Assembly: GCA_937921695.1 (NCBI GenBank)
Contig: CAKZTZ010000018.1
Location: forward strand, 1 to 64,000
Length of the DNA: 64,000 nt
From: an uncultured Sulfolobales archaeon
GTDB lineage: Archaea > Thermoproteota > Thermoprotei_A > Sulfolobales > Acidilobaceae
Direction: 5' to 3'
Of this stretch, positions 17,117-18,490 are shown in pieces. The position numbers and the translations under genes are program-made. Each line of letters opens with the position of its first letter. Within the stretch, counting starts at the first letter, position 1. The notes under the pieces are model-generated. The model did not search any database and was not told where the DNA came from. It was given only the letters and a program-made list of their open reading frames with translations.

Positions 17117-17187
17117 GCCTCAGAATAACATAGACAAGACTATTATGTGTGGTTCCTAAAATTTTAGTCATACTATATTAGTTCAAA

Positions 17188-17739
17188 CTATTTAAGCTCG
17201 GCTTCTAGTTTATCAATTTTCGAGACTAGCTCTTCATGCCTCCCTTCTCCAAGTTTTTCAACTTCTATATGCTCGAACTCCTCTGAGAGCTCCTTAAGGT
17301 CTTCACTGTCTAGAACCGCTCTAGCCATGTTGAATAGAATGTTATCCTCCTTGAAAATGTGTTCTCTGAGCAGCCTCACGTAGGCTACGGCGTTCTCCAA
17401 AATGTCTTCTTTTGCCTCCTCCTTTCCCGAGTAGTATTTCTCGACAGAGTCTTTTATGGCCCTTACGTAGCTTCTCCCCAGCTCGTGTTCTACGAGCATG
17501 ACACCTATAGGGCCTCCTTCCCTCGGGATCCCTTTTAACTCGAGTTTTGGAAATAGTGATGCTTCCTCTTTTCCGTGATGGCATTTGTCTGTGAATTCCC
17601 TGAAGAAGTTTATCAGTTCTTGGAAGAAGCTCTTATCTATAGTTTCACCACTGTAAACCCTGTAAGCTGCCTCTTCTAGGAGCTTGATAGCTCTCTCTAT
17701 GACCCTATGTTCGATCATGAGGTTTTCTATCGGGTCCAT
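17188..17739 (-). CDS. Hemerythrin (HHE) domain di-iron protein
   Basis: A 183-residue four-helix HHE protein. Candidate di-iron ligands are H11, H54 with E58 (KCHHGKEEA), H85 with E84/E86 (LVEHE) and H127 with E131 (REHIFKED), in the hemerythrin order. Relatives bind O2 or NO, or repair iron-sulfur centres damaged by NO (RIC/YtfE type). It is first in a minus-strand operon with the nitric oxide reductase, so an NO-linked role is the best guess. The acidic, charged C-terminus (150-183) is an extra helix. Promoter: TATA-like ATATATAAA at 17776-17784 beside the palindrome at 17787-17806. Confidence 0.87.
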   Translation of the reverse strand: MDPIENLMIEHRVIERAIKLLEEAAYRVYSGETIDKSFFQELINFFREFTDKCHHGKEEASLFPKLELKGIPREGGPIGVMLVEHELGRSYVRAIKDSVEKYYSGKEEAKEDILENAVAYVRLLREHIFKEDNILFNMARAVLDSEDLKELSEEFEHIEVEKLGEGRHEELVSKIDKLEAELK

Positions 17740-17775
17740 TTATAGAGCCCCCCGAGAGCCGGCTGCCCTTAAAGT

Positions 17776-17822
17776 TTATATATGGGCCTCCTAACATTTT
17801 AGGAGGATCTATATTAAAGTTT
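17776..17822. promoter_or_regulatory. Divergent NOR/regulator promoter with central palindrome (candidate operator)
   Basis: A perfect 8-bp inverted repeat CCTCCTAA-cAtt-TTAGGAGG (17787-17806) lies between two divergent TATA-like boxes: ATATATAAA for the minus operon (17776-17784) and TATATTAAAG for the regulator gene (about 17810-17819). It covers the BRE position of both promoters. The sequence AAAGTTTAT occurs on both sides (17771-17779, 17816-17824). Binding of the adjacent Bat-type regulator here is inferred. Confidence 0.6.
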
Positions 17823-17860
17823 ATCAGGATGGTTTCCACCTTACACCATAGGAGGCTTAC

Positions 17861-18490
17861 ATGCCTAGAAGCAGGGTCGTTGACATAACTGTTAGGGTTT
17901 GGAGGCCAGACTGCCCCCTCATGATCCTCGTTAAAGAGCTTAAGCTTAAACCTAGATTCCACATAGTAGCAGTGCAGGGCAGGGAGAGCAGGCATATAAT
18001 AGAGCTAGCTCCAGGCGACCAGCCAAACTATATAGCTAAACTTCTTAAAGAACACAGGCTCAAAGCTAAAATTGTAGATAGGAGCAGGGGCCTACTATGG
18101 GTTGATAACGCGGAAAACTGTAGCTTCTGCAGGACTATAAGCGAGCTCAGAGGCATAATTGCATCCCTGACGTTAGACGATGACGGCAATACTATCTATA
18201 GGGCGTTAATGCCGAGTAGAATAGCTGCTTCAAGGCTAATATCGAGGCTTAAAGCTAAAGGTTTAGAGCCGGAGCTCCTAGAGAGAAACAGTATGCTCAT
18301 TCCAAAGCTTACACTAAGGCAAGTTCAAGTTCTAACAATAGCCTATGAGAGGGGGTTCTTCGACGTGCCGAAAAAAGTAAACCTAGAAATGCTCTCTAAA
18401 ACACTCGGCGTGAAACCTTCAACCCTAGATGAGATCTTAAGGAAAGCCGTTAAGAAACTTATAGAGTCTTATGTGACTGTTGAGAAGTGA
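17861..18490 (+). CDS. Bat-type HTH transcriptional regulator with cysteine-bearing sensor domain
   Basis: The C-terminal residues 150-205 (LTLRQVQVLTIAYERGFFDVP...LGVKPSTLDEILRKAVKKL) are a clear bacterio-opsin-activator HTH (HTH_10). The N-terminal 140 residues form a small sensor domain with Cys18 (RPDC) and a CxxC at 87-90 (CSFC), able to bind iron, zinc or a cluster. Haloarchaeal relatives with cysteines (NarO/DmsR type) sense anoxia. Transcribed away from the hemerythrin-NOR operon with 121 bases between start codons and a palindrome in the middle, it is the likely NO or redox regulator of that operon. GGAGG lies at about 17851, before the ATG. Confidence 0.82.
   Translation: MPRSRVVDITVRVWRPDCPLMILVKELKLKPRFHIVAVQGRESRHIIELAPGDQPNYIAKLLKEHRLKAKIVDRSRGLLWVDNAENCSFCRTISELRGIIASLTLDDDGNTIYRALMPSRIAASRLISRLKAKGLEPELLERNSMLIPKLTLRQVQVLTIAYERGFFDVPKKVNLEMLSKTLGVKPSTLDEILRKAVKKLIESYVTVEK

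Follow-up and report, generated by a model that had tools for sequence, protein, structure and literature searches.

A palindromic site and an HTH_10 regulator point to a probable nitric oxide regulon in archaea

A small Bat-type regulator of a Sulfolobales archaeon probably binds a palindromic site, senses nitric oxide (NO) or another N-oxide through a centre held by cysteine and histidine residues and switches on the removal of NO, as part of a regulon that extends across the order and the phylum. The evidence comes from the window, by which we mean the whole stretch of 64,000 nucleotides analysed here, and from its relatives, where a phylum-wide NO (or N-oxide) regulon is the most likely reading. 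It looks like an undescribed switch by which archaea respond to NO.

Results

Genes of the nitric oxide locus

The locus comprises genes for a NO reductase (NOR), a hemerythrin and a regulator (Table 1). The NOR matches the Pfam models for the COX1 core and for the NorB cytochrome-c-like domain that mark the quinol type, and its translation, read by eye, contains the active-site stretches HAFVEG and AHHYYW, with the HxxxE and HH ligands, and lacks the CxxCH motif for heme c. From these domains and motifs the enzyme would be of the quinol-type class, the electron donor being predicted. The hemerythrin domain scores 77.8 bits against a gathering score of 25.3. It weakly resembles the di-iron domain of RIC/YtfE, with 28-29 bits against NCBIfam equivalog cut-offs of 204.7 and 254.

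The HTH_10 domain of the regulator is C-terminal (residues 150-202; 68.4 bits against a gathering score of 23.1), as it is in Bat, the bacterio-opsin activator. It is the sole Pfam match, with no PAS, GAF or BAT domain in the short chain, so that the protein is not a Bat proper; nor is it an NsrR or IscR, as neither Pfam nor NCBIfam gave an Rrf2 winged-helix match. A search of the PDB with the regulator profile found no relative, and AlphaFold2 run on the window sequence alone gave a model with a pLDDT of 40, too poor for use. Within the contigs of the same genome a search for close relatives returned distant HTH_10 proteins only.

Table 1. Features of the nitric oxide locus in the window.
Feature	Position	Strand	Basis
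NO reductase (NOR), single-chain, quinol-type (predicted), 730 aa	14924-17116	-	PF00115 + PF22085
Operator 2 (predicted), CCTAAAATTTTAGt, one mismatch, before NOR gene	17155-17168	.	sequence
Hemerythrin (HHE) di-iron protein, 183 aa	17188-17739	-	PF01814, 1.3e-21
TATA-like box of hemerythrin gene, CATATATAAA	17775-17784	-	sequence reading, aligned with other site-gene pairs
Operator 1 (predicted), CCTCCTAA-CATT-TTAGGAGG	17787-17806	.	exact sequence match
Operator 1 core, CCTAACATTTTAGG	17790-17803	.	between divergent hemerythrin and regulator promoters
TATA-like box of regulator gene, CTATATTAAA	17810-17819	+	sequence reading
HTH_10 (Bat-type) regulator, 209 aa	17861-18490	+	PF04967, 4.7e-19

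Two copies of a palindrome

Operator 1 is flanked by two TATA-like boxes, each beginning 6-7 nt outside the TTAGG core, so that both BRE positions fall under the outer arms of the repeat. This is the arrangement given in the initial annotation, a perfect inverted repeat over both BREs between divergent genes, and the exact match and the TATA spacing agree with it. The second copy of the site, operator 2, had been overlooked. The description of the hemerythrin and NOR genes as one operon is incomplete, since NOR has this copy and a TATA-like box of its own and thus probably a separate regulated promoter.

The core CCTAA-N4-TTAGG has a single match in the 1.39-Mb genome, namely operator 1. When the intergenic region was shuffled 500 times, zero mismatches were reached once, and for operator 2 none of 500 shuffles gave an equally good site. 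Another palindrome-like match (17836-17855), with three mismatches, is expected by chance and overlaps the likely ribosome-binding site; it was discarded.

Conservation of the site in relatives

The gene order is the same in a genome of the same genus (G122) and the core is found at both places, as CCTAATATATTAGG between hemerythrin and regulator and as CCTAAAATTTTAGG before NOR; the sole further match to the core in this genome lies within a gene. In three other genomes of the family (G054, G081 and G148) an HTH_10 regulator and NOR diverge around one perfect site, and the same is seen in G046, where the reading frame of the regulator is broken. When the eight NOR/hemerythrin/regulator regions of the family were compared with no preset motif, CCTAA-N4-TTAGG was common to all of them, while the best palindrome in 300 shuffle sets was shared by at most five. 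The core also precedes NOR in further genera of this family and in a second family of the order (f11), where the regions upstream of NOR carried the site with at most one mismatch in all four genomes. The palindrome, on whose conservation the initial annotation had staked its proposal, is conserved across the order, and a variant of it occurs in families elsewhere in the phylum.

Some regulator genomes lack a site of this kind beside the regulator (L003, L004, L191 and L192), which suggests that operators vary or lie further away. In one group (L228, L230, L231 and L233) the regulator adjoins nirK and the intergenic region is without CCTAA-N4-TTAGG; those of L228 and L233 have CCCTATATAAGGGG or CCCCTTATAAGG in its place.

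Several single loci may be recorded alongside these. In G046, a complete genome, the NOR-linked regulator (L086:3575-4341) is split over two frames, either broken or misread, and the operator is intact. G036 holds an orphan orthologue of the regulator, about 40% identical, near a truncated hemerythrin (L036:7781-9751) and with no operator match; it appears to be a degenerated copy of the locus. G258, which belongs to another family within the phylum, has a perfect operator 46 bp upstream of a hemerythrin gene (L249:3948), and this gene adjoins one for an HTH_10 protein with a CxxC. Matches to CCTAA-N4-TTAGG on C126 of G036, C72 of G122 and C24 of G099 lie within genes and were attributed to chance.

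Genes preceded by the site

Pattern searches of 13 further genomes of the order placed 66 sites, half of which (33) are intergenic against an expected 21% (p = 1.6e-7); the remaining half or so of the exact matches lie within genes, as chance predicts. For most of those placed at promoters, 28-50 bp separate the site from the start codon, and a TATA-like box follows after about 7 nt. The genes behind them are those for NOR, a DUF488-regulator operon, nirK (TIGR02376, 2e-38), narK beside narG (TIGR00886 and TIGR01580), a DUF2249-cupin protein and ferredoxins; one further target is hemerythrin-like by eye only, with no match to the Pfam hemerythrin model. The operator also precedes the genes of two membrane protein families that have no Pfam match and accompany the regulator. 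A likeness of the first family to NnrS was seen by eye, with no Pfam or NCBIfam match, and is not claimed. Leaving aside such unassigned members, the targets belong to the metabolism of nitrate, nitrite and NO or to the genes that usually accompany it.

Ten promoters of hybrid-cluster-protein (hcp) genes in one distant family of the phylum have the extended form CCCTAA-N4-TTAGGG with 0-3 mismatches, 37-71 bp and mostly 37-55 bp before the start.

The C-H-CxxC set and its gene neighbours

The cysteines of the window regulator are exactly C18, C87 and C90, the Cys-x2-Cys and one further cysteine of the initial annotation. All three are invariant in an alignment of 17 relatives (A1), and they are joined there by a residue that had been omitted, the equally invariant H45. 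The regulator is widespread among the 349 genomes of the phylum that were searched, and the C-H-CxxC set was complete in 39 of 40 further loci, the fortieth aligning in the CxxC part only.

NOR, hemerythrin, nirK or hcp lies within about 3.5 kb of 19 of these 39 regulators, whereas none of 16 HTH_10 paralogues without the set has such a neighbour (p = 0.0004); many of the 39 come from the same families, so that the counts are not independent of kinship, and the profile used as a marker for hcp was built from two loci of the same set. The counts span several families and four types of target. In G240 and G332 the regulator is again found with NOR and hemerythrin, and in G240 also with DUF488.

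A predicted second regulator-operator pair

At nine other NOR loci of the order (L071-L079, in genomes G028, G093, G039, G105, G177, G056, G016, G173 and G161 respectively) NOR is accompanied by the gene of a shorter regulator (about 160 aa; sequence read at most of the loci), which mostly diverges from NOR. Like the window regulator, these proteins have an early cysteine, an invariant histidine and, in five of the six aligned (A2), a CxxC, followed by a C-terminal HTH. This HTH differs, giving no HTH_10 match above the gathering score, and a comparison of the A2 and A1 profiles gave a match over the CxxC and the HTH with a probability of 96% (E 2e-9). CCTAA-N4-TTAGG is absent before NOR from all the short-regulator loci checked. 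A different palindrome, GTTAACC-N-GGTTAAC with at most one mismatch, is present between NOR and the regulator at five of the nine loci. That the operator changes along with the regulator speaks for the window palindrome as the site to which the neighbouring regulator itself binds, and a second pair of NO regulator and operator is predicted for the order at these loci.

A wider and more tentative proposal, with the balance leaning slightly against it, is that the N-terminal C-H-CxxC domain would be a new NO sensor with a metal or Fe-S centre, of ancient origin in the phylum and joined to two different DNA-binding tails, each with its own operator (CCTAA-N4-TTAGG or GTTAACC-N-GGTTAAC), and that it would throughout govern the genes for NOR, Hcp, hemerythrin, NirK and Nar.

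Discussion

From the computed conservation and position of the site, the classes of gene behind it, the invariant C-H-CxxC residues and the association with neighbouring genes, we infer that the palindrome is the operator of the adjacent Bat-type regulator. The regulator, presumably a dimer, would occupy CCTAA-N4-TTAGG immediately before the BRE/TATA elements of hemerythrin, of its own gene and of NOR. NO or a related N-oxide would then modify the metal or Fe-S cluster bound by Cys18, His45, Cys87 and Cys90, and the modified centre would switch on synthesis of NOR, for the removal of NO, and of the di-iron hemerythrin. It would seem most likely that activation occurs by aiding the recruitment of TFB/TBP, since a site just upstream of the BRE/TATA suits an activator of this kind. 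The same pair of regulator and operator would run an N-oxide regulon across the order, with the CCCTAA-N4-TTAGGG form taking its place elsewhere in the phylum. A Cys3-His set could hold an Fe-S cluster, iron or zinc. In IscR such a set holds a [2Fe-2S] cluster, and the residues of the regulator are thus compatible with NO sensing through a cluster.

The same regulator and operator might instead work by repression, a metal- or cluster-bound form blocking TFB/TBP at the BRE until removed by NO, as for bacterial NsrR. The outer arms of the window palindrome, one site between two TATA-like boxes, do cover both BREs, and autoregulation from a shared site is common among repressors. At most targets, however, about 7 nt separate the end of the core from the TATA-like box, which leaves the TATA and the start free, as for an activator, and the Bat-type relative NarO activates the nar operon, yet it also represses dms with nitrate (PMC10062603). 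We regard repression as rather unlikely. Similarly unlikely is that oxygen, nitrite, nitrate or the redox state is the signal and not NO itself. By HTH type the closest relative described is NarO, which PMC11218638 terms an oxygen sensor, and the nitrate and nitrite genes narK, narG and nirK are among the targets; the commonest partners of the regulator, on the other hand, are NOR, hcp and hemerythrin, and NO is favoured as the signal because such partners are mostly genes of NO removal or NO damage.

It is a little more doubtful still that the C-H-CxxC set is a structural zinc site and nothing else, with sensing elsewhere or by another protein. Cys3-His is a common set of zinc ligands and the computed results do not tell which metal is bound, but HTH_10 paralogues lack the set, and at the loci compared no protein lacking both the set and the CxxC accompanies NO genes. 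That the palindrome arose by chance or is some general promoter feature is hardly credible: although half of the genome-wide matches fall within genes, the window genome has only the one, its position is conserved in orthologues, shuffled sequences rarely or never equal it and the targets are coherent.

NO-responsive regulators are well described in bacteria. NsrR, HcpR, DNR, NnrR and NorR have overlapping targets (nor, hcp, hemerythrin-type di-iron proteins and nir) and likewise act from a shared palindromic operator, whereas their DNA-binding domains (Rrf2, Crp/Fnr or sigma-54 activator) are unrelated to HTH_10. The window regulator works like these proteins but is not a member of their families. 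Bacterial systems of this kind are reviewed in PMC1274295.

Amongst archaea, this kind of regulator is already known from Haloferax, where the Bat-type NarO regulates denitrification (PMC11218638 and PMC10062603); according to PMC11218638 (2024), no other transcriptional regulator of haloarchaeal denitrification has been described. NarO and DmsR, haloarchaeal Bat-type proteins without PAS or GAF domains, are likewise small, of the HTH_10 type and tied to anaerobic respiration (PMC11218638 and PMC10062603). Window-type sites precede nirK, narK and NOR, genes that the regulator may control. One haloarchaeal relative (L268), not established as NarO, differs in having a DCP near its start and the pattern C...CxC...C, with no matching His or CxxC, and none of the haloarchaeal relatives read has the C-H-CxxC pattern. 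A literature search covering few subscription journals returned no description of the regulator, its operator or the regulon, in line with the view of the initial annotation that such a NO sensor is uncharacterised in crenarchaea.

With an operator, a ligand set and a list of targets in culturable Sulfolobaceae, archaeal NO sensing becomes directly testable, and the regulon would help to account for the handling of nitrite, NO and N2O by archaea of hot springs and elsewhere. Searches with the operator may also extend the regulon, for example to the two unassigned families of membrane proteins that have the site, which are found at L019:2294-3331, L131:2492-3535 and L108:1447-2703 for the first family and at L165:1408-2112, L126:620-1321 and L167:1628-2368 for the second.
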